Positions 13,940 through 35,564 of a stretch of 64,000 nucleotides of DNA are shown in pieces; position 1 is the first letter of the stretch, and each line of letters starts with the position of its first letter. The stretch comes from Cristatella mucedo (Eukaryota > Bryozoa > Phylactolaemata > Cristatellidae), in NCBI GenBank assembly GCA_009760855.2, contig WPIO01000091.1, positions 434,001 through 498,000 on the forward strand, in the 5' to 3' direction. The notes beneath the pieces were generated by a model that was given only the letters and a program-made list of their open reading frames with translations, did not search any database and was not told the DNA's origin. A program made the translations under genes and the position numbers.

Positions 13940-16346
13940 GCATATCTCTAAAAATCCTCGCTCAATGTGCAATAAACCGCTAGTGATCAGCGACCTTATG
14001 TCTGAAAACGGTCTCGACCTGCTCGCCTTGACTAAAAATTGGCTAAAATCGGTAAACTGCCCGACAATTAAAGACGCTTTCCTACTGATCTCTCATTCTT
14101 CTACACCCTCAGATCAATCAAAACTGGAGATTGAGTTGGTATTATCAGGCACTCGAAATTTAACTTCAAGCCGTTCTCAGTACCATCGAATCAGTCTTTC
14201 GAATCGATTGTCTTAATTTAACCCGAAAACAAGCTACCGATGGTGGCAGTAGTCTATCGCCCACCAGATACCAAACCCTCCTTTATCTTAAATTTCTCTG
14301 ATTTCATTTCGATTCTGTGTGCAAGAAATCGATCCTTCCTCGTTATGGGTGATTTCAACATTCACTTTGATAACTTTTCTGACGCCGTCAGCTCTAAATG
14401 TCGAGCATTAACTGACTCATAGCCTCTTGTGGCTCATATGCATGGCCCTACTCACATCAAATTTCACACATTCAATCAAATTTTCTCAAACAACTGCACT
14501 TTTTCATTACCAATTATTACTAACGCCGTGCTGGTTTGGTCTAGCGGTTAAGGTGCTCGCCCCGACCAAGGTCTGACTGAGGTCATGGGCTCGAGCCCCG
14601 AGGCATATGTGAAGCGCCTGAATAGAGATTAAGTTCTATTGGGGCGCTATATAAATGAATTATATATACATATACTAAATCCTGCTTATCTGATCACGTG
14701 CAGATCTCATTCAGCCTACAATGTGTGCACTCCTCCTCTAAAATCACCTGTGAATCGCGAAACCTCAAGACCCTTGACATCGATGCTGTCCGTGTGAGAA
14801 TATCGGCCTCGCCGCTGCACCTCAGTCCCCCCTCCGATCAGTCATCATTAGTAGATAGCTACAACACGACTCTAGCTGAAATGCTCGACGAGTTTGCATT
14901 TCTAACTAAACGCGCTGTGCGCCTCGCCCAGACGGCCTCTGGTTTACCACAGATATTTAACTAGTTAGGTCTACTAAGCACAACCTTGAAAAAAACATAC
15001 TAAAGATCAGGACTGACTGTTTGTCAACAGGCATACGAGGACTACTGTAGGTCGTACCAATCGATCCTAGCAAAGGCCAAGTCTAGCTTCTATAAAACAA
15101 GTTGTTGAATCCATATGCACAATCCAAAAATGATGTAGGCGATCAACCATCTCCTCAACCGCTCCAAGGTTAGCTCATTACCTGACGATCCTTGTGATGA
15201 TCTAGTCGATCGCTTCTCTAGTTTCTTTGTCCAGAAGACAGACAAGATCAGGGTGTCCATCCTTAAGATAAAGTCATCCACCGTAGAATGCTGTCCTCCG
15301 ATTCCTTGCAGCAGCTCAATGTCTACATTCAAGCAGGTCACTAGCGACTTTGTCCTAAAGTTCACATCCCAATACAAAAACGACAATTCATTTGGACCCT
15401 ATTCCGTTTAAACCAGCTTCTACGATACATTGATCTGCTGCTGCCGTGTGTAACTAACGTCATTAATATGTTATTAGCCTCAGGTTATGCCCCAGTACCT
15501 TTCAAAAAAGCTGTGGTCAGGTCACAACTCAGGAAAGCGACACTGGACCAACTAAACTTGAGCAACTCCCACCCAGTCCACTAAATAATATTCCTATCAA
15601 AGACACTGGAATTAGTCGTGGAAGGTCAGCCGAACTCATATATTAAAACTTCAAATTTTGCTAGCTAGTTCCAGTCGGGCTTTAGAGATAATCGCTCCAT
15701 AGAGTCAGCATTGCTTTGGGTGTACAACGATCTGTTTAGGAATGCAGGCATGAGTAGAGTATCTCTGCTTATAGTCCTCAATCTTCCGGCAGCTTTTGAT
15801 ACTATCGATCACCAGGTTCTTCTTGAGTGCCTCTCATCTCACCGGGCATTACTGGAACTTCTCTGCAATTGTTCAGGTCCAATCTCAGTGGCAGACTTCA
15901 GAGTATTGATGTGAATAGACAAAAATCATCCGAGGTACATCTGAAATGCGGGGTACGTCAGGGTTCCGTGCTTGGTCCGGTACTTTTCACGGTCTATACT
16001 TTCCTTTTTGTCGATGTAATTGCCAAGCAAAATCTGGGCTTTCAGTCCTATGCAGATGACACTCAGTTGTACCTTTGCTTTGATTCCTCCCACCCCTCAA
16101 GCACGTCGATTTCTCTCAAACCTCTTGCTGCATTTACTGATGACATTCACACATGGATGGCAGAAAATTTTCCAAAATTAAATGATGATACAACTAACAT
16201 ACTAATAATGGGCAAACCAAGCGTGATTCAGAAATTGAAAGGCTAATGCTAAAAATTGGCTCTGTCAGTATGTCTCCTGTTTAATCTGCTTGTAAGGTGC
16301 CATGTTCCAAAGTGGCCTTTCTTTAGGCGACCACATCAGCTCCGCA
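13940..16346 (+). mobile_element. LINE-1, sense copy, 5' part: endonuclease to RT
   Basis: The longest sense copy of LINE-1. Its endonuclease (about 13,965-14,450) reads MCNKPLVISDLMSENGLDLL and later KLPMVAVVYRPPD and VMGDFNIHFDN. The usual catalytic LTETW is LTKNW here, so the catalytic Glu is lost. A SINE sits at 14,529-14,672. The linker and RT follow: FDTIDHQVLLE near 15,800, GVRQGSVLGPVLF near 15,955-15,990, and an intact YADD at 16,049-16,060. Stops and frameshifts interrupt the frame. At 16,346 an antisense LINE-1 begins; the sense copy resumes at about 17,998. Confidence 0.85.
14529..14672 (+). mobile_element. SINE family A: tRNA-derived head with L2-like tail
   Basis: The head has an RNA polymerase III A box at 14,537-14,547 (TGGTCTAGCGG) and a B box at 14,588-14,597 (GGCTCGAGCC), as in a tRNA. 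The tail, GAAGCGCCTGAATAGAGATT followed by GGGGCGCTATATAAAT, closely parallels the 3' end of the LINE-1 copies (TAAAGCGCCTAGAAAGAGAT...GGGCGCTTTATCAA). Sharing a 3' tail with a partner LINE is how such SINEs borrow its reverse transcriptase. It interrupts the LINE-1 endonuclease/linker region. Confidence 0.8.
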
Positions 16347-17998
16347 ATAATAATAATAATGATAATGTACTTGATAAAGCGCCCTCAGAGAGCTCAATCT
16401 CTTCCTAGGCACTTTACATTTTCGGCAAAGGGAAACGCGATTGAATTGTGAGTAATATCATGCTTGATAAACAACATAAACACCGTGGTTAGGGGTTACA
16501 TGCACAGGAAAAACATGCAAATGTGGTTAATGGCAGCATGCACAGTGTCAGCACGCATAAGCACATCAAGGATGAATCACAGGGACCCACTAAATGCTGT
16601 CCTAAATAGGAGTGCTTTTAGGTTCCTTTTAAATGTGGTCAGGTCAGGGGATCTTCTGACTCAGGTCGGGAGGGAGTTCCAGGCTTTGGGAGCATATGAA
16701 CTAAATGCACGGTCTCCCAAGGATTTGAGGTTTGTACGAGGTATTGGTAAACCGTTGGATTCCGAAAAGCGGGTGGTACGATGCTTGGTCTGGTGGGGGA
16801 GTAGATGTGAGAGACAGGCTGGAGCTAAAGAATGAGGTGACCTAAAAGTGAGCGACAAAACTTTGAAGTCAATCCGTTGCTTGACTGGTAGCCAGTGCAG
16901 GTCAGCGAGAAGTGGTTTTATGTGGCAACTGCGACGCTCACGACAGAAAAGCCTAGCTGCAGAGTTTGGCACCAGCTGCCATCGCCGGATCGAACATGCC
17001 GTTAGGTCACTAAGCAGTGAGTTGCAGAAGTCGAGACGGAATGTCACGAATGCATGGACCAACTTAGACGTGTTATCCTTATCTAAAAAAGCCCGAATTT
17101 TAGCAAATCAAGTGCAATATTATTATTATTATTATTATTATTATGTAGCTAAAAGAAGGCAGATTTGACTGTGGAGCTGATGTGGTCGTCTAACGAGAGG
17201 TCGCTTTGGAATATGACACCTAGATTTGGAGCGGATTCAACAGGAGATAAGCTGGCAGAGCCAATTTTGAGCGTCAGCCTTTCCAATTTGTGAATCACAC
17301 TTGGTTTGCGCATAACTAGTAAGTTTGCTTTATCATCGTTTAGTTTTAGAAAATTAGCTGCCGTCCATGTGCGGATGTCATCAATACATGCAGCGAGTGA
17401 GTTGGGAGAATTTGAGGTGCCCGAAGGCTGGGAGAGATCAAAGCAAAGGTACAGCTGAGTGTCATCCGCATAGAAGTGTATGCCTAGATTGTGATTGGCA
17501 ATTACATCACCAAGAGGGAGAGTACAAACCGTACAAAGAACCGGACCTAAAACGGAGCCCTGAGGTACCCAATATTTCAGATGTACCTCGGATGATCTTT
17601 GTCCATTTACGTCAATCCTCTGGACTCTCCCAGTGAAATATGATCTGGACCATGGTAGAGCAATGCCAGTGATGCCCAGGCGAGACGAGAGGCGCTCTAG
17701 AAGAACTTTGTGATCGATGGTATCGAAAGCTGCCGAAATATCGAGCAAACCAAGCAGAGACACTCTACCTATGTCTGCATTCCTAAGTAGGTCGTTGTAT
17801 ACCCTAAGCAATGCTGACTCTGTGGAGTGATTACCTCTAAAGCCAGACTGGAACTTACTAGCAAGGTGTGAAGTTTCAATATATAAGTTCAGCTGGTCTG
17901 CCACGACCCATTCCAGGGTCTTTAATAGGAATGGTAGAAGGGAGACTTGCTGTAGTTGCTCAAGATCTATTGGTCCAGTGTCGCTTTCTTGAGAAGTG
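16346..17998 (-). mobile_element. LINE-1, antisense copy nested in sense LINE-1
   Basis: A 5'-truncated copy with an (AATAAT)n tail at 16,347 and its 5' break near 17,998. From 18,006 down to 17,149 it keeps an uninterrupted 285-residue reverse-transcriptase frame: FQSGFRGNHSTESALLRVY, LDISAAFDTIDHKVLLE, QGSVLGPVL, and an intact catalytic YADD (17,461-17,472). It is thus better preserved than its host copy and younger. A (TAT)n tract at 17,118-17,144 interrupts it. The word GCAAT occurs at both joins, so a short target-site duplication is possible. Confidence 0.88.
17118..17144. repeat. (TAT)n microsatellite inside LINE-1
   Basis: Nine ATT-type triplets between RT and C-terminal parts of the nested LINE-1. 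The related copy at 61,885 lacks it. It could be the remnant of a very short retrotransposed tail. Confidence 0.8.
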
Positions 17999-18770
17999 GC
18001 AATCAAGACTGTCTACTTTCAACTACATAACATGGCTAAAATCCGCGCTTGTTTAGACAAGGATACCACATCTAAGTTGGTCCATGAATTTGTAACACCT
18101 CGTCTTGACTTCTGTAACTCACTGGTTGCTGATCTACTGGTATGTGCAGTCGGGCGCTTAAAGCTGGTTCACATCTCTGCATCTAGGCTTGTCTGTCGTG
18201 AGCGTCACTGTTACCACATTACACCACTTCTCGCCGACCTGCACTGGATACTAGTCAAGCAGTGCATCGAATTCAAGGTTTTGTCTCTCACTTTTAGGTC
18301 TCTTCATTCTTTGGCTACAGCCTACCTATAAGATCTACTGCCCTGCCACCAGCGTTTCGGAATCTAATTGTTTATCCATCATCCCTCATACGAACCTCAA
18401 ACTATTTGGTGACCGTGCCTTTAGTTCGTATGCTTCCAAAGCGTGGAACTCACTCCCAACTTCCGTCTAGACTTCTTCTGACTTCATCACATTTAAAAAA
18501 TAAATTAAAAACGCACCTATTTATGACAGCAATTAGTAGGTAACTGATTCATCTTTTATGTGCTTATGCATACTGACACTCATGCACGCTGCCACTAACC
18601 ACACTTGCATGCTGACCCTGTGTACGTCACCCCTAATCATGTTATTCATGCTGTTTATCAAGCATGAACTCGTCAATCGATCGTGTTTCCTGTGCAGCAA
18701 ATGTAAAGCACCTAGAAAGAGATTGAGTTCCTCGAGGGTTCTTTATTAAATGTACTATTCATATTATCAT
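17998..18770 (+). mobile_element. LINE-1, sense copy, 3' part with tail
   Basis: Continuation of the sense LINE-1 from 16,346. The protein reads from ...DHISS on the left side into IKTVYFQLHNMAKIRACLD here. Then come VTPRLDFCNSLVADLLVC, the HITPLLADLHW motif, and the AFSSYASKAWNSLPT region. The 3' end GTAAAGCACCTAGAAAGAGA is followed by an eroded ATT-rich tail at about 18,740-18,780. Joining the two halves gives a LINE of roughly 3.2 kb without its insertions. Confidence 0.82.
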
Positions 18771-20539
18771 CAATATTATTCACATGTATGCTATTGATCA
18801 GAGCCAGGAAATGTTGTTGGCCAGCTTCTAGCTGGAGAGATAGACTTACATATTGGCCGCTCACGGAGTCGATCGCCGATTTCTGTGCTGTCATACGTTT
18901 GCCTCTAGTCTAGCCGATGGAGAATATGGTGGACTTACGAACAAACTGTTGGAAACTGTTCTGCTCAATGTCAGGATGATTACATGTATAGCTTGCAGAG
19001 TCAAAATCATAATTTGTGATGCCTCTCCGGCCAAATGGTTTCTCACATTCGGAGGAAAAAGCATTAATTACTAGTCTGTAGGGCTGTTTCTTTAGCTTTA
19101 ACCTTCATCTTGCGAAAGAAAGCAAAGCACTCAGTTCCGCTCAAAGGCCACCCTTACGCGACAAACCCAGCAACCTGTGCATTGAGCAGGTGCTTTGCGC
19201 CGCCTAGGCCAGGCTAGACCGGGCCTAGGTAGCACGGCAGTGGGCCTATACTAGTCCTGTAGGCCTAGGCACTGAGCCGCCTAGTCGGGTCCAGGCCTAG
19301 GTCAATTTGGAGGGCTGGCTACGTGCCCGGCATTGGGAACAGCCGTATTGAAAAGTTCCTTCCTGGTTTAGCTCACTGAAGTATAATTTCTAAGTGAGCA
19401 TTCTTTGGACCAGCGCTCATTCTCAATTTTGCATACAGTTTACCACCAGCGTAAAATATTTGATTTGGTAGTATATGCAGGAAATCTATGACGTTCTCCA
19501 ATTGGAAATTGACATTCAACGATACCTTGGCTTTCGAATTTAATTCAGCCCATGAAGGAGCGCTTAATTAATCGTATATCAAATCAATTTTCCTCGTTGA
19601 AATCAGCTGAAAAGTCTTTGATCCAATCCGGATCCTTAAAAAGTTACACGATTTTTGGTCACTAGACTTAAGCTAAAAATGTACTTATAAATAATAAATG
19701 TCTCTTGAAATGCTCCAAGCAAGCTTCAGCAATGCGGAAAAAGCTCGCGGCAGCTGCGCGGCAAGCAGGCAAGCGTAAAGACAGCCAACAAGTAGCCGAA
19801 GGCTCCGTATCTAGGCTGGGCGTATCTACGCGGACACGACGATTGTTATCGTTTACGCGAGAAATTCGTACACGACGGTACTGCCTAAGTGAAGCAAAGC
19901 ACCTACTTGGCTGTTTCTGCTGTAGTAGTAATATTCAACACCCGAGTCTCTCTCTATACATATCTCGTGCGTCAATGCTCTCTCGAGTAGTCTGCCTTTG
20001 TACCAACCACCAGGCCGGCACTTGACGTTGCGCTCGGTTCGTCGGGCAACGTCTGGTAGAGGAGCGTTTTTTGCTGCTCTACCCGTGCTAGCATGATTAA
20101 CCGCAAGAAGCAACGAATTATCAAAATCCACAGTAATCCATTCAAATTAAGCTAAAAACTGATCGAACATTGAGGTTTGTCGAGCTCAAATTTTGGGCGG
20201 CTACTGTCGTACATGTCGTACTCACGATTTTAGCTATCCACTAAGTTCCGTGTCATTGTTGCCCGCCCACTTTTGCAAAGGAGATGAAACGACGGAGACC
20301 TGTAATGCAAGCAATCCAAGCAATCCACTTTATTTCTCTTTAAATCCGTGACGAATCAGTTGCACAAAGCTCCGCAAAGTTTGGTATACCAAACTGAACT
20401 ACAAGTAAAATGTATTCAGAAGACTTTGCGCGGTTCCGCTTATGTGTTCTCGAGAAGTCCATTGAAATAGGCTTGCAGCGGTACAGGCTAAAACCTCAAT
20501 CCAGCTCAGTCTTCTTCAGTCCACCCTATTCAACTACGC
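18771..20539. other. Unassigned 1.8 kb with CCTAGG cluster
   Basis: No gene recognised. Four CCTAGG hexamers lie within 100 bp at 19,203, 19,224, 19,264 and 19,296, in a CG/CT-rich block between 19,190 and 19,320. A perfect 14-bp palindrome TTTGGTATACCAAA lies near 20,380. The part after 20,290 has words resembling the neighbouring 168-bp units. Confidence 0.3.
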
Positions 20540-23255
20540 AACGAAAGACATCCCGTTCGAAAAGCTCATATTTTGATTGCGTATGACAGTACAGTCTATG
20601 ACAATTGAACTCACACAATTTCACTTGCTACGGAACGTCCGTTCTCGTGCAAGAAGCTGCAATCCGCTGCAATAACCCGCTCCAAAACCACAGTCCGTTT
20701 TAATCTGCCGCATCCACCAAAAAGTGACTCAAAATTAATTTCGCCTAGCTCCAGTTTTTATTGCATATTAAAGAGTATCGTGTTGTGTGCATATTCACAT
20801 AAAATACATGAATTGTGCGGCCGCTTGGTCTGGCAATGTGAGGCAATCGCCCAAAATTACATGGGAAAATGCCCCAAGTCACTATATTTCACTGCAAATC
20901 CTCCTAAAATCGTAATGTGAGGCTCTAATTTACTTGGCATGTAAGACTTGACTCAGTTAAAAGTGCTCCTATAAAATTTCACGCCATCGTTCATACGCGT
21001 TGTCATGCAATGCACTGCAATGGACTGCTACGGCCCGGTCCCATACCACAATCCCCCGCAAAGTAACAGTAATGCATGCACTAGAAGCTCTAATTATGAT
21101 TGCATGCCGAACTCGTATGATTTCATTATAATTGCGCATTTGTGACAATAACACATGCATTGGTGACATCTCGTCTTGACTTATGTAACTCACTGCTTTC
21201 TGGTCTATCGGCCTGTGAAATTAGGTGCTTAAACCTGGTACAAAACTCTGTAGCTAGGCTGAAGTTGCCACATCACACCACTTCTAGCCGCCCTGCACTG
21301 GCTCCCATTCAAGCCGCGCATCGACTTCAAGGTTATGTCGCTCACTTCTAGGTTCTTTCATTCTTTGGCTCCAGCCAACCTATCAGATCTACAGCCCCAC
21401 CAGGCTCAGCATCGTACCATCCGCTTTTTGGAATCTAACAGTTTACCTATACATCGTACAAACCTCGAATCCTTGGAGACCGTGCCTCTAGTTCGTATGC
21501 TCCCAGAGCCTGGGTCTCACTACCGACTTGCGTCCCGACATGCCCTGACTTGACCAGATTTAAAAAGAGACTAAACGCACCTATTTATCTCTGCATTTAG
21601 TGGTGCCCCGTGATTTACCCTGTATGTGCTTACGGCTGCTTACGCTGTGCATGCTGCCACTAACCGTACTTGCATGCTGACCCTGTTTATGTCCCCCTAA
21701 CCATATTATTCCTGTTTATTGAGCAAGCAAACACTAACCAGTCGATTTTCTTTTGTTTGCAGCAAATTTAAAGCGCCTAAAAGAGATTGAGTTATCTTGG
21801 AGTGCTTTATCAAGAGTGTTATCATTATTATTATTGTCATTGTTTTGAACCACTCTACAGCTATGACTGCATTCGAATGTAATGGCCCGAGCAGATACCG
21901 AAATAAACAGCAATCCGATGCAAAATGGTCCGAAATTAGTTTCCCAATGCTTTAATTGCCAAAGTATATTACACAGCACACTGTTAACGGTGTATCCGCG
22001 CTATTTTAACCAATTGCGTTCGAAAACTCTCGGGCAATGAATGGAAATCTACCGTAACGGATCGGCTCGAAGCAGTAATCCACTACAATCCGTCGCAAAT
22101 CGAACGAAAATTGGCTGAACGAAGCTCAAGATATCATTGCATTTAACGTTTCTTTGTCTTAAACGTGAAACCGTAGAATTGTCAAGCTATTTTGCACGTT
22201 TATTGTCAAGAGCGGATAGTAATCGAGAGCAATAGTAGGAGCCGATACCAAAAACCTTAGGCAAATAGACGAGAAATCGGATGCACAAAGCTCCCATTTT
22301 CATCCACGTCATATATCAGTGCCCGGTGCACTTATACTTTCAATTCACTCCGCACGCTCATTTTTGGGCAAGGCATGGCAAACGATGGCAATGGCCCCGG
22401 CAAAGACGGCAATCCAGTGTGATGCATTGCAAGCACCGGAAAGTGGCTAGGTCAAGATCAAATATTTCTTAATTGTCAAATCGCACTGCGCGTAAAGTGC
22501 AATCACACCCTTTCGACCAAACGTGCACGTACAATTGCGAGCAAGGAATGACAGTCGACAGCAATGGCCGGGGCTAATACCCCCATCTCGCAGGCAATTG
22601 CCGGGAAATTGGCAGGGAGGAGCTCCAATTGTGATTGCATATACTTTTTACTGCGTCCAATGTGAAACTATGGCATTTTCAAGCTGCATTTCTCGTTGAC
22701 TGTCAGCAATGCTTGGCAATTGACAGCAATTGTTGAGTCCGATGCAGCAATCCGTGGAAAATCGACAAGATTGGATTCGAGCAACTGAAACTCGTCGTAC
22801 CACGTAACATCCAACTATATCCACGCATACTGTGCACCCATTAGTGCATTTAATCAACGGCAATGTAAGGCAATCGACGGCAACGCCCCGGGAAATGCAC
22901 TGGTCCATAACGGTCTATTACAAATGAACCAACAGTTATTGAGAAAAGCTCCAACATTTTTTCATATTGCAGCACGCTGCATTAAAAGTTCAACCACATC
23001 CTTTTACACAATCGTGAACGTACAGTCGAGGGTAATGCGACGCAATCGATGGCAAAAGCCTGTGTTCTACCACGATCCGTTGCACATTGAGATTGGCTGT
23101 TCCCAGCTCCGATTTTTATGCCACTTATCGATCACTGTGGGTGCACATACTGTCATAAAGTTTTAAACATTCAATCTTGGGCAACGGATAGCATGCTTCG
23201 GCAATCGCTTGCCTTTGACTGCCATATTGTTATAACTATTAGGTAATACGCACTT
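20540..23255 (-). repeat. Inverted-repeat array, left arm (about 12 degenerate ~168-bp units)
   Basis: Units recur every 155-190 bp around a core such as GGCAATCGACGGCAATGGCC (near 20,830, 21,005, 21,880, 22,050, 22,215, 22,380, 22,545, 22,700, 22,865, 23,035, 23,190). The arm pairs in reverse complement with 23,256-25,800. Examples: 20,990-21,052 pairs with 25,300-25,370 (ATGGGACCGGGCCG), 22,690-22,870 with 24,125-24,320, and 22,930-23,080 with 23,945-24,090, by eye near 80% identity. A LINE-1 fragment (21,144-21,845) interrupts this arm, which accounts for the ~690-bp shift in pairing. The outer edge pairs with CGAAAAGCTC at about 20,557. Confidence 0.75.
21144..21845 (+). mobile_element. 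LINE-1 3' fragment inserted in the inverted-repeat array
   Basis: Sense, 5'-truncated. It encodes LVTSRLDLCNSLLSGLSACE and related C-terminal words, then the 3' end AAAGCGCCTAAAAGAGATTG and a short ATTATT tail. Removing it restores the register of the inverted repeat, so it is younger than the array. Confidence 0.85.
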
Positions 23256-23270
23256 TAATAAAGTGCGATT
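23245..23270. repeat. Short palindrome at the centre of the inverted array
   Basis: The sequence CGCACTTTAATAAAGTGCG forms a perfect short hairpin exactly where unit orientation switches (units left of about 23,225 read one way, units right of about 23,300 the other). It is the probable centre of the foldback structure. Confidence 0.55.
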
Positions 23271-25800
23271 TAATATCCTATCAGTACTTTAGTTTTGCAC
23301 ACATACGTGCAGTCAATTGGTGACGGATTGCAGAAGATTGCTGTATTGGCATCATAATAATAATAAAGCATTTGATGTGGCGCCCTCACTGAACCCAGTC
23401 TCTTTGTAGGCAATTTACATTTGCTGCAAAGGAATGGGCCATCGGGGTTGATTGCAGTGAATTGACCTAGAGCTAGCTTTAATAACGGCATTTCCTGCGT
23501 ATACAAAAAATAGAGTATACCGGATTGAGAAATCTAAATGGGAGCATCACCCCTAAATTCACTAAGGCATCCAATCTTTTTGTAACAGACCGCTAGAGAT
23601 TCCCATATTTTCCCGGACCATTGCCGTCGATTTCTGTGCAGTGCTCTCGAATCTAAATTCACGATTGGTTGATGGTATGTGGTTGCAATTTGAATACAGT
23701 GTGCTGCAATACCCAAGAAAAGTTGGATCTTCTCTTAAGAGCTTTTTATTTCGTTGTATCAGACCGTCATTGATTGCCTTATTGTCCCTGGCCATTGCCG
23801 CTGATTGCCTTGCAGTGTCCACGATTGAAGGAGTACAATGGGAGGCAGTGCCTGCACGCACAATAAACTTTATGTGACATGAAAATAAATTGGGGCTGCC
23901 ATTAGCAAATTTCAATTCGTAACTGATTGCTCTTGAAGACAGGCTGTTGCCGTAGATTACCGTGCACTACCCTTGACTATATGTTCGTGGTTGTTTAAAA
24001 TGATGCGGTAGCAATTTTAAAGCAGTGTGCTGCAATACACAAAAAAAGTTGGAGCTTCTCTCAGCAACTGTCGGTCCATTTGTAAGGACCATTATGGATT
24101 GGCGTATTTACCCGGACCGTTGCCATTGATTGCCATCCATTGCTGTTGATTAAGCGCACATAATGGATGCAAATGATGCGTGCGTACAGTTAGATGTGAC
24201 GTGGTACGACGAGCTTCAGTTTCCCGAAGCCAATCTTGTCGATTTTCCACGGATTGCTGCATCGGCCCTGACCATGGCTGACGATTGCCGTGCATTGCTG
24301 ACAGTCAACGAGCAAAGCAGATTAAAAATGCCATGGTTTCACATTAGACGCAGCGAAAAGTTATATGCAATGACAATTAAAGGTTCGAGCAGCCAATTTC
24401 TTGTCGATTGGTCGGTAGTTGGGTATGGCCCCTTGACCATTGCTGTCGATTGCCATTCATTGCTCTCGATTGTACGTGGGAGATTGGTTGAGAGGATATG
24501 ATTGCACTTTTACCATAGTACGCTTTGACACTAAAGAAGTATTTTATCTTGGTCCAGCCACTTTCCAGTGATTTACGATAGACCATACTGGATTGCCGTC
24601 TTTGCAGGGGCCATTGCTGTCGTTTGTTATGAGTTGCCCGAAATTGAACGCACGGAGTGAGTTGAAAGTGTGTGATCGGCCGCAGTGAGATATAACGTGG
24701 AATAACAGTTGGACCTTCGTGCATCGGATTTCTCGTCGATTTTGACAAATAGTTGCGGTATTGGCCCCTACCATTGCTATTGATTGCCTTGCGTTGTTTA
24801 CAATTAATATGCAAATAGTCTAAAACCTTGTAGGCTTCATTTTTACGTCAATGAAATGTTAAATGCAATGACAATAGGAGCTTCACGCAGCCAATTTGGG
24901 GTCGATTTGCCACGGATTGTAGTGGATTGCTGCTTCGTGCCGATCTGTTGCCGTAGATTGCCATGCATTGCCCAAGAATGTACGAATGTAATTGGTTAAA
25001 AATGACGTGGTTTCCCTTTAAACCCGTTCGCTTTGTAAAATGCATTCGCAGTCGTAGTACTGAGAAACCAATTTTGGGGCATTTCGCATCGGATTGCTGT
25101 TTATTGTGGTATTGGCCTGGGCCATTGCTATCGATTTCAGTGCATTGCTGCAGAATAGTCGAGGCATATTATAATATAGAAATATATAGAAATATAGAAT
25201 ATTATAATAAAGTCGTGCGAGTGCACAACAACTGAAGATTAGAACGGCGTGCAATCATAACCAGAGCTTCTAGTCAAAGCGTTTTTGTCGCTTTGTAATG
25301 GATGGCATTATGGGACCGGGCCGCAGCAGTCGATTGCAGTGCATTGCATGAGAACGCGTACGAACAACGGAGTGTAAGTTGCATAGGTGCACTTTTAATT
25401 GAGTCTAGTCCTATATGCAACGTAAATTAGAGCTTCGCGTTGGTGATTTGAGGTTAATTTACAAGAATAAAGTGAATTGCGGTATTTTTACATGTCACTT
25501 CGGGTGATTTCCACTCATTGCCAGACCGGGCTTATGCATAATTTTGTACTTTAAGAAGATGCGAACACAAAATAGTGTGCTTTGCTATGCACTAAGCACT
25601 GGAAACCGTTTCAACCTATTTCTAGTTGTTTTGTCTAGTGGATGCTGCAGATTGGAGTGGACTGTGGTATTGGCCCGGTTTGTTGCAGTCTCTAGAGGCC
25701 GTGCCATTGCAAGTGAAGTTGTCTGAGTGCAACTGTCGTAGAGTACACTATCATATTCGATAAAAAAATTGAGCTTTTCGAACAGCATATTTTTTGTTGC
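23256..25800 (+). repeat. Inverted-repeat array, right arm (about 13 degenerate ~168-bp units)
   Basis: Cores like GACCATTGCTGTCGATTGCC start near 23,602, 23,793, 23,947, 24,117, 24,273, 24,438, 24,610, 24,771, 24,947, 25,121, 25,315, 25,500 and 25,680. The spacings are 154-194 bp, averaging a little under 175. The arm mirrors the left arm. Its outer end, TTGAGCTTTTCGAACAGCAT near 25,770-25,790, pairs with the left edge, and pairing is lost beyond about 25,800. No transposase is seen. Together the arms resemble a foldback-type DNA element or an inverted satellite block. Confidence 0.75.
23353..23432 (-). mobile_element. LINE-1 3' tail fragment
   Basis: About 80 bp: ATAATAATAATAAAG tail, then GGCGCCCTCACTGAACCCAG and the TTACATTTGCTGCAAAGG end. 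A severely 5'-truncated insertion inside the first unit of the right arm. Confidence 0.75.
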
Positions 25801-26189
25801 TTTTTGGAGGCATCATCTAAAAGTAGAAGCAATTAGTCATGTATTAACGGCATCATAGAAGGCTTTTGTATCGTGAACTGGTCATTAGGCTGTTAAGCTG
25901 GTTTGTACTGCGTACCAATCGACTAAGTTTAGAACGTAGGCACTGATCTGAAGTGGATCACTGATAACTAACAAGCACTATTCTTTGAACCTTAGGGAGA
26001 TTTCAATGAAAGGAGCTGAATATTCCAACTTCGAAGTTGATGCATCAGTCAGTACCGGTTCGACCGGTAATAATTAGCTAGCAGTCGAGTTGGTATACAT
26101 ACAATGAGGCATTCCCATAGCTCACGATGGCTCATCACTTTCGATGGCCATCGACGGCAATGTTCTCTCATTTTCGTCTGTGATCGTAG

Positions 26190-26474
26190 ACACTCGAAGC
26201 GCGAGCCGCAAAGTGCGAGGAGATGAAAGACAAGTTGCGACGTCAGAGGCGGAATCTGGAATGCCGCATCGCCCTTGTCACCCCATCGACGCAGGTCTCG
26301 GCCGCATGGAATCGTGACGAACTGCGGCTGGGAAGACAGAGGAGCCCTGCGACTAGATACCAAAACAGCGGTGGCGTAGATGGCAGCTCGGACAACGACG
26401 CGTCTAGTGACCTGGGTAATCCGCTTCGCGGCACACGCTGCACCGAGCCGAAGCGGAAGTCGAGCGAAAAGTAG
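26190..26474 (+). pseudogene. Orphan duplicate of the MXD terminal exon
   Basis: Same 285 bp as 31,539-31,823, with the same acceptor (GATCGTAG) and the same 94 codons and stop; I see no difference. It encodes the leucine zipper and C-terminal tail. It lies about 3.7 kb upstream of exon 1, and no copies of exons 1-4 are visible before it, so it cannot be the end of a normal MXD transcript here. It may be a partial tandem duplicate, a remnant of a second gene copy whose front was lost, or an assembly artefact. Back-splicing or inclusion in an upstream transcript is conceivable but unsupported. Confidence 0.8.
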
Positions 26475-27032
26475 CGCTCTAAGCGTCCTCGCCTTGTCGT
26501 TCAGCGACAATACCATTCACGTTCTTTAGATGACATAGACGTGATTAATGACTGAAGCAAAAGTCACAAGCGTGCGTCACTGTTCGGGTTGGAGAAAGAT
26601 GTCGTAGCACTGTTCAGGCTACTGCATTGATGGATGTGAACTAAGAGTCAGCTGGAGGGCTTGACATCCAAGTGGCAATACATGAAGCACAACGGTGGTT
26701 TGAATTGGGTGCATTACATTTGGCATAAAGCGCTCGATTCCACTGCTACGAGCAATGCACCGAGTCTTTTTTCGGAGGATTGTTGAGCATCTTTTAATTT
26801 GGGGCAACTTGGTACGTTTGTGTGTCTTATGTCGCCCGGTGCTTTGCTCCTTCAAAGCAAGTCGTTTTAGCAATCGTCGTTTAATGTTAGGTCATCTATT
26901 GCCTTTGATATAGGGCAATATCAATTTATATTTTATCAGTTTCTTCAAAGATTAAACAGCTCAGATAAAGGAAGGCGTATCATTAGCATCATTCGCCTTA
27001 TCAAATGTTCACATGCTCGGCCAATCTTGCAG

Positions 27033-27223
27033 TCAGACTGACTCAAAATGGCTTAATGTACGATGAAAAGCTGCTATCGTACTCTTTGACGGAACCTCGC
27101 CGCGTTCGGTATATCGGCTGCTTGCTGCTGGCACGCGATCGGGCTCGTGCTAACTCGCTTTGCTCGCTGCCTATCAATGAGTCATTCTGCACGCATTATC
27201 CAGATATTTATGACTCTTACTGA
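27033..27223 (+). pseudogene. Duplicate of the possible alternative MXD exon 6
   Basis: Copy A counterpart of 32,382-32,572. The open frame ending ...INESFCTHYPDI is kept, with three base differences: one silent and two changing Asp to Tyr near the end. Whether it is an exon at all is uncertain. Confidence 0.3.
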
Positions 27224-28324
27224 AGCCCACTCCGAGCCGCATCAAAGAGGTCACAAAAACCACGGGCAATTTATCGGGACTGTGGATATGGTAATGGTTT
27301 TGCAGCCGTAAATGGGATTCATTCGATGTAGGAGCGGAACATGATGTCTAACCTAGTGCTGCACAATCTTTTAAATCCTAACGAAACCTTTGCAGCATGA
27401 TTGGCACGGAGCTTTTAGCGTCGCCCAGATAATTGCTCGGACACGGGGGCAAGAAGAATGGTCAATACTTTAGCGACAAGTCGGACGACAAAGCACTCGC
27501 ATTCAATATCCTCATGTTTACAAAGTTCTCCGGAGGACGACCGGGGAGAGTTTACGGGCCCCCTGTCTGCGTGAGAATGCAGTAGGCCAGAAAGAATTCC
27601 CAGTCAGACCCAGCACGAAGCGGATGTGATCGTTGATGACGCGTTGGGACGTTTGGCAAGCAGGCGTCAGTCATGAATCTATTTAGTGCTTTCGACGAGC
27701 TAATCACACGAAGCCGGACATGTCATGTGAAAGGCAAAACTTGGCGCCACAAAATCCCCGGCGACTCTGAGGGAGTATTGCTTCAGCAAGCGATCTGTTT
27801 GGTCTGCTTCTATAGTCAACCTCTGGCCTAAAAGTTCAATAAAAAAAAGTGAAAGTTGTGAGGATTGACTAATTCAACGGCCTCATTAATTAAGTGGCAG
27901 AAGAGCCTGCGTAGCTATTCCTCCGCTTGCACGAGCAAAGGGAAATCATCAACTGCATAATTCGCACCTATGATTTCAATCGCAAAATGCGTCTAGTTTA
28001 CCCCTAGGGTAAAATCATTTACCCCGGTCTAAGCGGTGACAAGGAATTCAAAATCTCTTACTATTATGTGAATTGATGTCTTCGGATTCCTTGATATGGT
28101 GCAGGCACAATCTTCCATTCAGCCAAACGCTACACAGTGCAACACAGAACGCCGCCGCAAGCCCAGTGTGGCTTGCGTTTAACTTCTAAACTCCAGAAAC
28201 AGTTATCTAGCTCTCTTTGCCTTATTTTCCACCACACCACTTTCTAGCAGCACACATGCACTAGCGGGATTGCATTGCAATGTGTTATCGCCTTTAGAAT
28301 GTGCCCTAGTCGACAGGTAAAGAG

Positions 28325-28640
28325 TCGACGTCGTTTCCTAAGAATTGTGGAAGTGAGGTTCACAGATGGCAACCAGCACAGCTAAAGTGCCGGCAGACTT
28401 TAAATGGAAGGACGAAACGGCTAGTTTATTTTCCATACACGACCTGAGGGCAGAAGAAGGCTGTGTTTGTTTCGACTCACAGCACACTGACACTCAGATC
28501 GCCTACTTAGACCTGGTCCCTGTCGGGTTTCAGTCAGATGCCATTTTAGTACAATAGACAGTAACCAGTCGTCGCCCAGGGGCGCAGATTCATCGATGAA
28601 TGTAGCTTAAGCAGCAGTTAATGGTACCTTACAATTTGGC
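28325..28640 (-). mobile_element. LINE-2 3' fragment in duplication copy A
   Basis: Matches the minus-strand LINE-2 at 3,220-3,450: GAATTGTGGAAG, CAGCTAAAG and ACGACCTGAGGGCAG recur in order. The same fragment, longer, is in copy B at 34,315-34,690, so it was present before the duplication. Confidence 0.6.
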
Positions 28641-29269
28641 CGCTTCTGAGCTGACAGGGGACATACCCAACCTGTCGCCGAACCCTTCGTGCATTGTTCT
28701 CGTACAACACAATAATCTGGCGAGTGCCGAACTGCCGTTCGAGCCTATCGAAGTATGATAATGGATACTGACACGTGTCACATTTATTTCCGGGTATTTA
28801 GCTCCGCATAAAAGGGTTACTGTATTCATAAGTAGAATTAGTGCCGTTCCTTAACAATGCTGCTATATTACTGCGTGGGGGGACTCGGAGGCAGTGGCTT
28901 TGTCCATTTAGAGGCATGAGCAGCTGACCGACCAGGCTTCAGAGGGTGCTAGCGCAGCTAAAGGGGTAGCTTAAGCAACCAGCTTGCTGTGCGATCGCAG
29001 GAATCTCTACTGTGCATCTTGGAAAGATGCCAAACTCCATTGGAATAGAGGTCAAAAGGCCACCATTCGTAGTAGGCTTAGCGAAAGGTAGGCCCACTAA
29101 AAATATGCCTTAGCTTGTAATCGTAAGATTTACTTTCCAGGAAAATCAGGCAAGTAAAAACTTTAGGATTGTAGTTTTCTTCAAGAAAGAAGTAACTTAA
29201 AAGCTATTTAATGCGTGAGACCACATCTAATCGCACCATCAACCAGGACCGGCAAATCGCAATCGTTAT

Positions 29270-30234: not shown

Positions 30235-31823
30235 GTAAGCAGCCAGAGTCTCGGCTGGATTGCCAGGCAGCTAGTGGACCGGCGGGCGCCCGCCGGCGAT
30301 GCGTTTTGGAGGCGCTCTCGGCAGCCGCCGCGCAGCGGTAAGCGGCTTGATTTGTAGCGCAGGAGCACTGCTACGCGGCCGAGCGGCCGCGCTCCGCCGA
30401 GCCCGAGCCAGTCGACCAGGAGAAGTTAAGGTCGGATGCGGAAGGCTCAGCAAAAAGGCTGCCCGCGAAGAGGTGAGAGGACCCTGCGGCTGCTTGGGCG
30501 GCGTGCGCGAGCGAGCGAGCGGAGCTGCGAAGCAGTTCGCCAGGGGCACTCACGGTGGACGGCACGTTGTCACGGCCTGTCGAGGCCGCCACCCGGAAAC
30601 GCCGCCGGGCGCGCCGCTCCGGGCGGAGGCGGCCGCTGATACTGATTCCTGCCGACCTTTCGCTCTATGAGCCGCTACGGCTTAGAGCCGACGCACGACT
30701 GCCCGCCGCGATGGCGCCGCTGCGGCGGCTCGAGCGCGGAGCCGTCACGTGGCTTGCTTGCCGGGGCAGCGACGGCGGCCAGCGAAGCCACGCGACGGCG
30801 CAGCTGCTTGCTAGAACGCGTTCGTGCTGCGGCGGCAACGGCGGCGGCAGCGGCGGCACGCAACTAAATGCCGGCCAAACGTGCCCCAGCCGCGGTCGAT
30901 CTGGCACAGTTTCATCGTTGACGCTCTGCACCATTTTAGATCAACGCACAACGAGCTGGAGAAGCACAGGTAGGCAACGCCACCGCGGCAGCCCCCGCGC
31001 GGCCGGCCGGTCGGCGCTGCCGCCCGCCAGCCGCACCTGATCGCGGCAGGGGCGGCGGTTAGGGCGCTGGCTGCAGGCCCACGCACAGTACCGTATCGTA
31101 CTGTGCTGACGAATCGGTGCGGCTATGAGCGCTGGCGTGGCCGCGAAACGTCCGGCAATGCTTGGGCAAAGTCGCTGCAGTCTAGAAATGTGGGTGTTTG
31201 ATTGGGGGGGGGCGATAGGGCGAAATAGAGGCTACGGGAGCAGCGGCTGTGGCCTCGCTTTGCAGGCGAGCACAGCTGAAGGACGCCCTGGAGGAGCTGA
31301 AGGCAATCTTGCCACTAGGTCGGAGAGCGTCCAAGTATACGAGCATTGGCGTGATCACGCAGGCGTCTCTGTTCATTAAGGTAGTCTTCGCCGACGCGCC
31401 GCGAACTGGGCCGCAGTTGCGGGCGAGGGGATAAGTGACTTTCCGAAAGGCTCACCCCGCTGGCGTGGTCTGGCTAACTGCCATATTTTTCGATGGCCAT
31501 CGACGGCAATGCTCTCTCATTTTCGTCTGTGATCGTAGACACTCGAAGCGCGAGCCGCAAAGTGCGAGGAGATGAAAGACAAGTTGCGACGTCAGAGGCG
31601 GAATCTGGAATGCCGCATCGCCCTTGTCACCCCATCGACGCAGGTCTCGGCCGCATGGAATCGTGACGAACTGCGGCTGGGAAGACAGAGGAGCCCTGCG
31701 ACTAGATACCAAAACAGCGGTGGCGTAGATGGCAGCTCGGACAACGACGCGTCTAGTGACCTGGGTAATCCGCTTCGCGGCACACGCTGCACCGAGCCGA
31801 AGCGGAAGTCGAGCGAAAAGTAG
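30156..31823 (+). CDS. MXD/MAD family bHLH-leucine zipper repressor (Max dimerisation protein)
   Basis: Five exons join in phase to give 207 residues, inside the 206-228 typical of MXD1/3/4 and MXI1. Residues 8-24 (MTNLQHLLLAAACIESR) form the Sin3-interaction domain. Residues 66-113 form the bHLH, with E-box contacts H68, E72 and R76 and helix words LKDALEELKAILPLG. Residues 114-142 form a zipper with heptads L115, C122, L129, L136, then an acidic Ser/Asp stretch. The known role of the family is a nuclear heterodimer with Max that binds CACGTG E-boxes and recruits Sin3/HDAC against Myc. Introns are short (123, 467, 296, 158 bp) and the front is a CpG island. An in-frame stop at 30,105 makes the ATG at 30,156 the first; M8 (30,177) is also possible. 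An alternative last exon may exist at 32,382. Which MXD paralogue it is cannot be told. Confidence 0.88.
30358..30472 (+). CDS. MXD exon 2 (linker, EHxYA motif)
   Basis: Acceptor GATTTGTAG, donor GTGAGA, 115 bp, phase 1 to phase 2. It starts AQEHCYAAERPRSAEPEPVD, where EHCYA corresponds to the EHGYAS that follows the SID in vertebrate MXD proteins. The middle is acidic, the end basic (AKRLPAKR), leading into the basic region. Confidence 0.8.
30940..30969 (+). CDS. MXD exon 3 (30-bp microexon, basic region)
   Basis: Acceptor CATTTTAG, donor GTAGGC. The 30 bp complete Arg65, encode STHNELEKH and start Arg75. This is the RSTHNELEK signature of MAD proteins. The same small size is, from memory, kept in vertebrate MXI1/MXD genes. 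Confidence 0.85.
31266..31380 (+). CDS. MXD exon 4 (helix-loop-helix)
   Basis: Acceptor CTTTGCAG, 115 bp, ending in phase 0 at ATTAAG before GTAGTC. It encodes RAQLKDALEELKAILPLG, then the loop RRASKYTS and helix 2 IGVITQASLFIK. Compare RAHLRLCLEKLK..PLG...H.T...L..AK.HIK in vertebrate MXD proteins, which have the same length with no gap. Confidence 0.88.
31539..31823 (+). CDS. MXD terminal exon (leucine zipper and C-terminus)
   Basis: Acceptor GATCGTAG at 31,538, then 94 codons and TAG. TLEARAAKCEEMKDKLRRQR and RNLECRIAL align with [20 protein letters not shown]...LKWRLEQL of MAD zippers. The acidic patch DGSSDNDASSD parallels the Ser/Asp/Glu-rich tail of the family. It is identical to the orphan exon at 26,190-26,474. 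A usable donor, GTAATC, lies inside at 31,765. Confidence 0.82.
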   Translation, partial: TLEARAAKCEEMKDKLRRQRRNLECRIALVTPSTQVSAAWNRDELRLGRQRSPATRYQNSGGVDGSSDNDASSDLGNPLRGTRCTEPKRKSSEK

Positions 31824-32381
31824 CGCTCTAAGCGTCCTCGCCTTGTCGTTCAGCGACAATACCATTCACGTTCTTTAGATGACATAGACGTGATTAATGA
31901 CTGAAGCAAAAGTCACAAGCGTGCTTCACTGTTCGGGTTGGAGAAAGATGTCGTAGCACTGTTCAGGCTACTGCATTGATGGATGTGAACTAAAAGTCAG
32001 CTGGAGGGCTTGACATCCGAGCGGCTATACATGAAGCACAACGGTGGTTTGACTTGGGTGCATTACATTTGGCTTAAAGCGATCGACTCTACTGCCGCGA
32101 GCAATGCACTGAGTCTTGTTTCGGAGGATTGTTGAGCATCTTTTAATTTGGGGCAACTTGGTACGTTTGTGTGTCTTATGTCGCCCGGTGCTTTGCTCCT
32201 TCAAAGCAAGTCGTTTTAGCAATCGTCGTTTAATGTTAGGTCATCTATTGCCTTTGATATAGGGCAATATCAATTTATATTTTATCAGTTTCTTCAAAGA
32301 TTAAACAGCTCAGATAAAGGAAGGCGTATCATTAGCATCATTCGCCTTATCAAATGTTCACATGCTCGGCCAATCTTGCAG

Positions 32382-32572
32382 TCAGACTGACTCAAAATGG
32401 CTTAATGTACGATGAAAAGCTGCTATCGTACTCTTTGACGGAACCTCGCCGCGTTCGGTATATCGGCTGCTTGCTGCTGGCACGCGATCGGGCTCGTGCT
32501 AACTCGCTTTGCTCGCTGCCAATCAATGAGTCATTCTGCACGCATTATCCAGATATTGATGACTCTGACTGA
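32382..32572 (+). CDS. Possible alternative last exon of MXD
   Basis: A strong acceptor (CCAATCTTGCAG, ending 32,381) opens a frame of 62 codons plus stop: RLTQNGLMYDEKLLSYSL ... SLPINESFCTHYPDIDDSD. The internal donor at 31,765 in the previous exon (CTGG|GTAATC) is phase 1 and this acceptor completes the codon in phase, giving a 251-residue isoform. The frame is kept in duplication copy A. Vertebrate MXD genes do have one more exon after the zipper exon, but I see no clear sequence similarity to it. Confidence 0.3.
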
Positions 32573-33539
32573 AGCCCACTCCGAGCCGCATCAAAGAGGT
32601 CACAAAAACCCAGGGCAATTTATCAGGACTTTGGGTGTGGTAATGGTTTTGCAGATGTAGATGAGGTTCAATCGATGTAGGAGCGGAACATGTCTAACCT
32701 GGTGCTGCACAAACTTTTAATCAGGATCGAAACCTTTGCAGCATGGTTAGCACGGAGCTTTTAGCGTCGCCCAGATAATTGCTCGGACACGGGGGCAAGA
32801 AGAATGGTCAATACTTTAGCGACAAGTCGGACGACAAAGCACTCGCATTCAATATCCTCATGTTTACAAAGTTCTCCAGAGGACGACCGGGGAGTGTTTG
32901 CGGGCGCCCTGTCTACGTGAGAATGCAGTAGGCCAGAAGGATATCCCAGTCAGACCCAGCACGAAGCGGATGTGATCGTTGATGACGCGTTGGGACGTTT
33001 GGCAAGCAGGCGTCAGTCATGAATCTATTTAGTGCTGGAGACGAGCTAATCACACGAAGCCGGACATGCCATGTGAAAGGCAAAACTTGGCGCCACAAAA
33101 TCCCCGGCGACTCTGAGGGAGTTTTGCCTCAGCAAGCAATCTGTTTGGTCTACTTCTGTAGTCAACCTCTGGCCTACAAAGCCGATGGGAAAAGGTAAAA
33201 TTAGTGAGGATCAGCTAATTCAACCGCCTCCTTTACGAAGGGGAAAACGTGCCTTAGCGGCTATCGCTCCGCTTTCAGGGGCAAACGGGAATCATCAACA
33301 GAATTTTTCGCACCTACGATTTCAGTCGTGAAATGCGACTACTTTACCCCTAGGGTATAATAATTTAGCCCAAGCTTAAGACCCAGCGGCAAGCAGTTCA
33401 CGACCTCCTACTGTTAGGTTAATTGATTTTTTGAGCTCTCTTGATATGGTGTAGTAACATCCTTTCACTCAGCCAAAGGCTACACAGAGCACCACGGAAT
33501 GCTACAAGAAGCGCCGCGTGGCTCTCATTTAAATTGAGC

Positions 33540-33615
33540 AGTTAAAAAATCGTTTTAAATTTAAAAATTAAAATTAAATTAAAATTAATTTTTTTAAATC
33601 GTTTAAAATTAAATT
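33540..33615. repeat. AT-rich low-complexity (AAATT)-type tract
   Basis: Imperfect AAATTAAAATT repeats between the conserved part of copy B and the LINE-2 fragment; absent from copy A. Confidence 0.7.
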
Positions 33616-33821
33616 CTAGAACTATTCATCAAGCGCTCCGTGCTTCATTTCCACAACAGCCCTTCCCGGTAGCACAAATGTACCAACTGGATTGCAGTGT
33701 GTTATCGCTGTTAGAGTTCTGAATATCAGCATACACGTTTCTGCGAACGCCACGTCATGTCGAATGACTGACAATGCAGCCACCTTAAGCTTAAAGAACG
33801 GTAAAGACGAAGGTGTGATGT

Positions 33822-34240
33822 TGTTTCAGCCTGTTCGCGCCCTCAGGTCCTGTGTGGACAATAAATTAGCTGTCCAATTTCTCCGGTTAAAGGCAGTTGG
33901 CGACAGAAGCTTTAGCTCTGAAGGTCCTAGACTGTGGAACTCACTTCCACAATTCTTCCGCAACGACAACTACTCTCCTACTGCCGCCTATGGTACATCC
34001 TTTTCAGCGGTCCTGAGCTGCTACTTTCATGCTATTTACTACCTCAACTGCTCTCCTGACTCTGCTTTGCTTCCCACTTTCTCTTTGTTGCGTGAGACGA
34101 AGTCTGTTGGCTACCGAATGCGTACCTAAAGCCGCACAGGCTGTGAGTGCGCTACAAAAAACTCTCCTGCGTAGCACCCACATGGTATTTATGACTTTGT
34201 GGAGTTACAGACGTAGATACGTTACATTACATTGCGGCTT
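33822..34240 (+). mobile_element. LINE-2 3' fragment, sense
   Basis: Encodes PVRALRSCVDNKLAVQFLR, DRSFSSEGPRLWNSLPQFF and LLRETKSVGYRMRT, then the 3' untranslated end with ACATTACATT-like pentamers near 34,220-34,240. It is the most readable LINE-2 3' end in the window and the reference for the split copy at 1.3-3.7 kb. It inserted in copy B after the duplication. Confidence 0.8.
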
Positions 34241-34314
34241 CAAATACTTCCGGTTTATGTCAGTTAGGCCGCGATTATTGTACACCCAGCAATAAAAAGA
34301 CCATCTCAGCCATT

Positions 34315-34690
34315 CAAGAGAAGTCTGAGTTAGGAGAGTAGTTGAGGTAGTTATTAGCATGGCAGTAGCAGCTCAGAAACGGCTGGAAAAGATGTGCCTT
34401 AGTCGTCAGTTGGAAAGTCGACGTCATTTCCTAGGTGTTGGGGAAGTGAGTTCCATAGATTGCAACCTGCACAGCTAAAGTGTCGCAGACTTTAAACGGA
34501 AGAATGAAACGGCTAGTTTATTTTACATACACGACCCGAGGGCACGAGAAGGCAGTGTTTGATTCGACCCACAGCACACTGACACACAGATCGCCTACTT
34601 AGACCTGGTCACGGTCGGGTTTCAGGTGGACTTCATTTTAGAACAATAGGCAGTAACCTGTCGTCGCCCAGGGGCTCAGATCCATCGATG
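34315..34690 (-). mobile_element. LINE-2 3' fragment, antisense
   Basis: Begins GTCTGAGTTAGGAGAGTAGTTG, matching 3,115-3,140, and runs through the AGCTAAAG and ACGACCCGAGGGCACGAG words. It faces the sense fragment at 33,822, leaving a LINE-2 inverted pair with a ~75-bp spacer. Confidence 0.65.
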
Positions 34691-35345
34691 AATGTAGCTT
34701 AAGCAGCAGTTAATGGTACTCTACAATTTTGCCGCTTCTGAGCTGACAGGGTCGCCGAACCCTTCGTACATTGTTTTCATACAACACAATAATCTGGCGA
34801 GTGCCGAACTGCCATTTGAACCTATCGAGGTATGATAATGGATACTGACACGTGTCACATTTATTTCCGGGTATTTAGCTCCGCATAAAAGGGTTACTGT
34901 ATTCATAAGTAGAATTAGTGCCGTTCCTTAACAATGCTGCTATATGGGTGTACTGGGGGGGGGACTCGGAGGCAGTGGCTTTGTCCATTTAGAGGCACGA
35001 GCAGCTGACCGACCAGGCTTCAGAGGGTGCTAGCGCAGCTAAAGGGGTAGCTTAAGCAACCAGCTTGCTGTGCGATCGCAGGAATCTCTACTGTGCATCT
35101 TGGAAAGATGCCAAACTCCATTGGAATAGAGGTCAAAAGGCCACCATTCATAGTAGGCTTAGTGAAAGGTAGGCCCACTAAAAAAGAGGTTTTAGCTTGC
35201 AATCGTAAGATTTACTTTCCAGGAAAATCACGCAAGTAAAAACTTTAGTACTGTAGTTTTCTTCAAGAAAGAAGTAACTTAGGAAAACTCTTTAATGCGC
35301 GAGACCACATTTAATCGCACCATCAACCAGGACCGGCAATCTCGA

Positions 35346-35564
35346 TCGGCCACTGAAAGGGTGAGCAGGCTTGGAGTAGCCTTACCTTCCCAATCAGCCT
35401 CCCAGTGATACTTGATAGCCTCTTTACATACATTTTTCGACGTCGCTTGCTAAAATTCCAAGTGCTTCTTATTCTTGGTCCGGCTGTACATGAGAAGCTT
35501 AATACATGGACCTATCCTCTTATATATCGTCCCAGTGCTCTTCGCCCAACCGCATTGACGGTCG
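35346..35564. other. Unassigned between duplication copies B and C
   Basis: No gene recognised. The MXD terminal exon expected ahead of copy C is not present here. Confidence 0.3.

Follow-up and report, generated by a model that had tools for sequence, protein, structure and literature searches.

A stretch of 64,000 nucleotides from the bryozoan Cristatella mucedo (contig WPIO01000091.1 of assembly GCA_009760855.2, positions 434,001 to 498,000 of the forward strand; 'the window' below) carries, at positions 20,106 to 25,803, two mirror-image arms of about 2.4 kb net each, joined at a small palindrome. Each arm is an array of degenerate units of about 170 bp. The best explanation, in which we have considerable confidence, is a non-autonomous DNA transposon of the foldback type, present here as a damaged copy, for which we infer a Mutator-like element (MULE) as the mover. 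Dispersed copies have a common centre, the same unit order, the same outer end and a 9-bp duplication of the target and we therefore interpret the family as a non-autonomous foldback DNA transposon. Its terminal inverted repeats (TIRs) are about 3 kb long, include about 17 diverged units of about 170 bp each, and meet at a short hairpin core. The family thus combines long TIRs with internal repeats, dispersed copies with fixed termini, a target duplication and a middle region with no recognised transposase open reading frame (ORF).

The assembly searched for other copies contains 572 Mb in 688 contigs. A query covering the switch point between the arms (23,000-23,600) gave at least 65 matches, a lower bound obtained with 40 of the 1793 first-look candidates scored. 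Twelve of these concern only the tail of a long interspersed nuclear element (LINE) but many others span the switch point itself. Copies were sampled as 20 loci of 9.9 kb each. Nine (L012, L014, L015, L017, L018, L021, L022, L024 and L028) have three or more units on both sides of the centre, L015 in a rearranged form. From overlapping copies, the full element would be about 6.3 kb long, with a left arm of about 2.8 kb, a core of about 0.5 kb and a right arm of about 3 kb. The core is enlarged to 1.3-1.9 kb in L012 and L028 by a LINE fragment. Core ORFs were printed for six copies and, by eye and with no scan against Pfam, no transposase was recognised among them; those of L012 and L028 include LINE-like fragments.

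The arms of different copies end at one place (...GGATTGCGGTAATTCGTCGAACCC) and are followed by unrelated DNA. The outer end of the family, GGGTTCGACGAATTACC, was defined on 35 different ends collected by means of a pattern whose last letters are CGAAC. Directly after these the letter is C in 33 of the 35, and the one following is C in 29; beyond this the letters are mixed. The pattern GGATTGCGGTAATTCGTCGAAC occurs 656 times in the genome (330 + 326) with up to two mismatches, and a variant terminus pattern 36 + 28 times; the backward control of the first and the control of the second both gave 0. At L022:8625-8680 two foldback copies face each other head to head, with about 20 bp separating the right end of the first from the inverted end of the second. 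One locus, L036 (C38:574,625), carries the family terminus although its arm gives no BLAST match against the consensus. This is a divergent subfamily and is possibly closer to the source element.

The family duplicates 9 bp of its target on insertion. Ten two-ended copies were compared: five pairs from 100 listed places, L018 and L021, and three pairs found with the variant pattern. The best agreement between their flanks is at a length of 9 bp (44 of 90 positions compared with 21.2 in a mismatched-pair control; P = 0.00025, permutation), the next smallest value among lengths from 2 to 12 being P = 0.038. Neither 7 bp, with 16 matches in 70 positions (control 16.1), nor 8 bp, with 21 in 80 (control 19.8), exceeds chance. 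The matches per copy at 9 bp are 7, 6, 5, 2, 4, 1, 1, 4, 6 and 8. Two copies therefore match at 7-8 of 9 positions, two at 6 and one at 5 with an indel, while one (4 of 9) becomes clear if an extra run of G beside the element is allowed for, CGGTTTAGG then flanking it on either side. Three of the pairs were obtained once 9 bp had been settled on as the length; these gave 4, 6 and 8, the 4 belonging to the copy with the G run. Another copy, at C332:10,095,998, was left out of this set, the sequences on its two sides being inverted copies of one another. It is part of a 1.8-kb two-ended copy (C332:10,095,900-10,097,910; L043 and L044) whose inverted symmetry extends past both termini into at least about 78 bp of flank, with one mismatch and one indel in about 114 bp. 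This palindrome is either an inverted duplication that has taken in flanking DNA or an assembly artefact.

In the copy in the window, an ungapped search for inverted repeats gave mirror pairs that are nested and in order, from 20,568/25,769 to 22,957/24,045. With the LINE insert removed from the left arm, a gapped alignment of this arm with the reverse complement of the right arm has 1497 identical columns of 1919 (78%; score 1197). The best of 20 single-arm shuffles scored 8 and the direct orientation 0. In a multiple alignment of 20 rows the same two arms agree at 73% over 1944 columns. The original prediction of a long inverted repeat, put by eye near 80%, with a palindrome where the orientation switches, is borne out: CGCACTTTAATAAAGTGCG, at 23,249-23,267, has an 8-bp stem and a DNA folding z-score of -3.6, and at the centre of another copy, L025, the hairpin is longer, its stem having two blocks of 9 bp (z-score -5.2). 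The two opposed unit arrays which it described were also found. A profile seeded with nine units and then iterated identified 13 units on the minus strand (20,354-23,208, one split by the LINE) and 14 on the plus strand (23,431-25,782, all with E < 1e-10), together with two further weak matches at 23,201 and 23,325. It found no units elsewhere in the window at E up to 1. Tandem Repeats Finder gave no rows for 19,500-27,000, as expected for units which are so diverged.

The left limit of the structure does change. Alignment to the arm consensus takes the left arm out to about 20,106 rather than 20,540; the alignment begins at the eighth base of the terminus (20,113), the first seven bases having been placed by extension. 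The right arm ends early, at about 25,803, without the outer units c16-c17 and the terminus, and the copy is therefore asymmetric. Each of its arms differs from the consensus by 24-25%. In the window, Rfam gave no matches and a tRNA scan found none; among ten window ORFs, Pfam matched RVT_1 alone, in two LINE ORFs.

The arm consensus is 3,035 bp long and contains about 17 diverged units in a fixed order, with a median pairwise identity of 0.72 and a spacing of 146-215 bp. Each of the 27 window units has its best match at a consensus position in the order expected, running from c16 to c3 in the left arm and from c1 to c15 in the right; the margin is thin for two, the unit at 23,762 and the one split by the LINE. 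Since the window units match their own consensus positions in mirror image, the array predates the spread of the family, during which it was copied as a fixed sequence. Four right arms (L025R, L018R, L013R and L019R) align end to end and agree with each other at 0.87-0.89. The left arm L026L agrees with these four at 0.86-0.87 and the two arms of L018 with each other at 0.86; a second left arm, L017L, is more distant (0.80-0.81 from all others). In different copies, left arms and right arms thus resemble one another to about the same degree, which implies that the source had two almost identical arms. Between the arms of the window, 168 derived bases are shared in 1937 columns, compared with 38 expected. 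Sharing with any other arm is lower: the highest count is 129 in 2252 and the highest rate 6.8%, compared with 8.7%. Part of this sharing is subfamily-wide, and other arms also exceed chance. The excess suggests that the window copy descends from a lineage in which the two arms had probably been homogenised.

Target duplications are 8 bp long for hAT elements and 7-8 bp for P elements. Those of MULEs are 8-11 bp (PMC6446971), which the 9 bp found here fits better, and the best length is outside the range of the P superfamily. Because a 9-bp duplication is typical of MULEs, a Mutator-like transposase of the Phantom type is the most likely mover. Such transposases are present: the MULE domain PF10551 has 59 matches in the genome, and two of the four MULE ORFs scanned carry both FLYWCH and MULE domains, the Phantom layout. 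Four loci (L053, L055, L056 and L059) are MULE transposase elements of about 2 kb with inverted ends of 120-144 bp. The ends of L053, L056 and L059 are GGACAAAATGTCCC-like repeats whose outermost motifs differ between the two sides, and L056 is flanked by AATGGAAA on both sides, as read by eye. In several of these elements the inverted ends consist of repeated motifs of 14-15 bp; ends built as motif arrays therefore occur on MULEs in this genome.

The foldback family could also have been moved by another transposase, whether one like that of P/Galileo, one of the hAT or Merlin type, or one of a class not yet described. We regard this as possible but less than probable. Foldback arms have arisen in different superfamilies, Galileo for example being a member of the P superfamily (PMC3688188), and no MULE with matching ends was found; the length of the duplication is what argues against it.

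A further feature of the arms is the rhythm of a short motif. In the arm consensus ATTGC occurs 52 times in the outward and 13 times in the inward direction, compared with a Markov expectation of 9.8 and a maximum of 19 in 300 simulated sequences. Its spacings include 10 bp (20 times), 20 bp (7), 31 bp (6) and 41 bp (7), and no value of 5-9 or 11-19 bp. In the arms of the window the bias is the same at lower counts (32 versus 8 and 24 versus 11). In 18 unit matches the motif core carries 1.23 bits compared with 0.86 in the rest of the unit (P = 9e-6), its limits having been chosen after the motif had been seen. One turn of DNA is about 10.5 bp. The 10-bp spacing is close to this, so most neighbouring ATTGC sites face the same side. 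By analogy with Galileo, the array is a candidate for transposase binding; the suggestion in the original prediction that the unit core might form a protein-binding array is strengthened by the exact phasing and by the higher conservation of the core. The likeness of the unit to a nucleosome repeat is no more than a resemblance in length; the spacing of the units ranges from 146 to 215 bp.

The same phasing and conservation, and a unit length close to that of the nucleosome repeat, might instead indicate an array for a host protein or for nucleosome positioning, with a regulatory or architectural role and merely spread by the transposon. We consider this unlikely, given the variable spacing of the units and because there is no indication of host use here. 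More speculatively, and with no more than tentative confidence, the family may represent a foldback lineage organised on three nested scales: ATTGC motifs phased at 10 bp, nucleosome-sized units of about 170 bp and copy-corrected arms of 3 kb. The hundred or so binding sites per element, mostly on the same face, might then be recognised by a long polymer of transposase or of a host protein, with hundreds of such arrays scattered throughout the genome.

We propose the following mechanism for a foldback transposon of this type. Another element, most likely a MULE, would provide the transposase, and this would bind the phased ATTGC sites along the arms, pair the two ends, cut, and reinsert the element. 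The large number of sites would compensate for a recognition motif that is short and common. In the active source element, copy correction would keep both arms nearly identical while, after insertion, each copy would merely decay. The copy in the window acquired two LINE insertions and lost its right end.

A number of observations weigh against this interpretation. In four of the ten two-ended copies only 1-4 of the 9 flanking positions match, and the first seven copies taken alone gave P = 0.020 at 9 bp but also 0.036 at 5 bp and 0.044 at 12 bp. No single copy was found with both ends and the full length of about 6.3 kb. All ten two-ended copies are only 2.8-4.9 kb long; the five whose interiors were read (L018, L021, L051, L052 and part of C42) are all below the full length, shortened by internal deletion or rearrangement wherever a break is visible. 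The MULE ends that were read use motifs of 14-15 bp and different letters from the foldback ends. No element with foldback ends and a transposase was found, transposases of classes other than MULE not having been searched for. Of 163 distinct listed ends (164 listed rows of both terminus patterns, with one end common to both), none comes to within 40 kb of a MULE match (59 in all) when compared by eye, about 500 further ends being outside this comparison. At eight MULE loci (L053-L060) the foldback terminus is absent and there are no confident units; two weak unit matches (E = 0.07) and one end-like string with four mismatches were judged to be noise. Finally, 11 of the 20 sampled loci are one-armed or nearly so within their 9.9 kb, although two of these, L016 and L019, adjoin runs of N. 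Even so, the arms in the window do pair along an anti-diagonal and the genome does not contain one-direction arrays only. The view that this is a foldback-type transposon with sub-repeats in its arms is upheld by dispersed copies with the same centre, common end points and the 9-bp duplication.

Two other explanations fare less well. Long inverted arms could pair as RNA, and the hairpin might have been retained because its transcript yields small interfering RNA; the centre folds well as DNA both in the window and in L025. This is very unlikely for arms which, in the window, are only 73-78% alike, contain many gaps and are interrupted by two insertions. Least probable is an immobile inverted duplication of a local satellite array, with a unit length set by nucleosome spacing: the units are indeed tandem, about 170 bp long and degenerate, and a near-perfect inverted duplication including flanking DNA exists at C332:10,095,900, but the same end sequence at hundreds of dispersed sites, the lack of relationship among the flanks of the 35 ends read, one centre in many places, a fixed unit order in place of head-to-tail blocks without fixed ends, and the 9-bp duplications all argue otherwise, and the common termini and target duplications largely refute it. 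Coding repeats were rejected since the unit spacings are not a multiple of three, and the long terminal repeats of a retrotransposon since the ends are inverted.

Features of the foldback copy in the window (positions are those of the window)
Feature	Start	End	Strand	Basis
Outer terminus of left arm, degraded: AGAAGCAACGAATTATC compared with family GGGTTCGACGAATTACC	20106	20122	-	Consensus alignment
Left arm, outer part: c17-c13 and part of c12, reading outward leftward	20106	21109	-	
Later insertion: 3' LINE fragment, exact borders uncertain	21110	21853	-	Self-BLAST
Left arm, inner part: remainder of split unit, then c10-c3	21854	23240	-	
Foldback centre with palindrome CGCACTTTAATAAAGTGCG	23241	23282	.	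Fold z-score; common to dispersed copies
Right arm, innermost part, ahead of LINE tail	23283	23351	+	
Later insertion: LINE tail of about 82 bp	23352	23433	+	Copy comparison
Right arm: c1-c11 and c13-c15 matched, outward rightward; without c16-c17 and terminus	23434	25803	+	

The insert in the left arm had been taken for a young LINE-1. It is a LINE insertion but it is old and is not a LINE-1: 21,154-21,835 matches the 3' ends of other LINEs in the window at about 75% identity (self-BLAST) and it has an ATT-type tail. From its tail, the reverse-transcriptase motifs and the RVT_1 matches of LINE ORFs in the window we take it to be L2/CR1-like. The LINE tail in the right arm was inserted later, as positions 23,351 and 23,434 are contiguous in the other copies compared. 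Elsewhere in the window, two inverted LINE pieces (15,528-17,104 and 17,170-18,780) are 76-80% alike and carry reverse-transcriptase ORFs on opposite strands. A two-part module of about 3 kb is present as direct copies at 26,139-29,265 and 31,488-35,348 (90-92% identical), with no Pfam match in the ORFs tried; between the two lies a G+C-rich stretch (30-32 kb, 62% G+C). A minisatellite of 21-22 bp (2,091-2,541) forms one array of about 7 copies and, overlapping it, another of about 15, and several of its frames are open. The observed/expected ratio of CpG is 0.90, a value suggestive of an invertebrate.

The family shows that an array at a transposon end can keep a strict 10-bp motif rhythm over some 17 diverged units. 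The purpose of oversized, repetitive foldback TIRs is an old open question, which can now be tested on one defined unit. With hundreds of ends, the family also offers a system outside Drosophila in which to study how arms are homogenised and how foldbacks drive inversions and deletions.

FB of Drosophila melanogaster and TU of sea urchin have a foldback architecture with tandem sub-repeats in the arms. The window element resembles these in architecture. Foldbacks of both organisms are mentioned in PMC4079207, which concerns the nearest described case, Tetris of Drosophila virilis. This is also a non-autonomous foldback, with tandem repeats of about 220 bp in its TIRs and duplications of 8-10 bp; its complete copies have no conserved ORFs, no source transposase was found according to the same text, and its assignment to Mutator was inferred from the length of the duplication. 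It is also reported to expand into satellite arrays. The bryozoan family is similar in its repetitive TIRs and duplication length but differs in organism, in unit length and, as far as seen, in sequence, and its units are fixed in order, strongly diverged and contain motifs phased at 10 bp. In the open-access literature no description of the family was found and four of its motifs gave no match.

Galileo (Drosophila, P superfamily) also has long, internally repetitive TIRs, whose repeats bind the THAP domain of the transposase (PMC3688188). Such additional binding sites are the mechanism proposed here, although the 9-bp duplication points to a MULE and not to a P-type transposase with THAP. 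Tm1 of Meloidogyne (Mutator/Foldback, Phantom class) shares duplications of mostly 9 bp and composite TIRs of short tandem motifs, and has non-autonomous and MULE-encoding forms side by side (PMC3169594). Its motif is 13-15 bp long, the whole elements described there reach at most about 2.6 kb and its ends are asymmetric; the MULEs L053, L056 and L059 resemble it more than the foldback family does. Foldbacks with repetitive TIRs are a known, polyphyletic kind of element. The mobile element in C. mucedo is thus of an ordinary kind; as far as seen, it represents a new family with one unusual feature, the phased motif.

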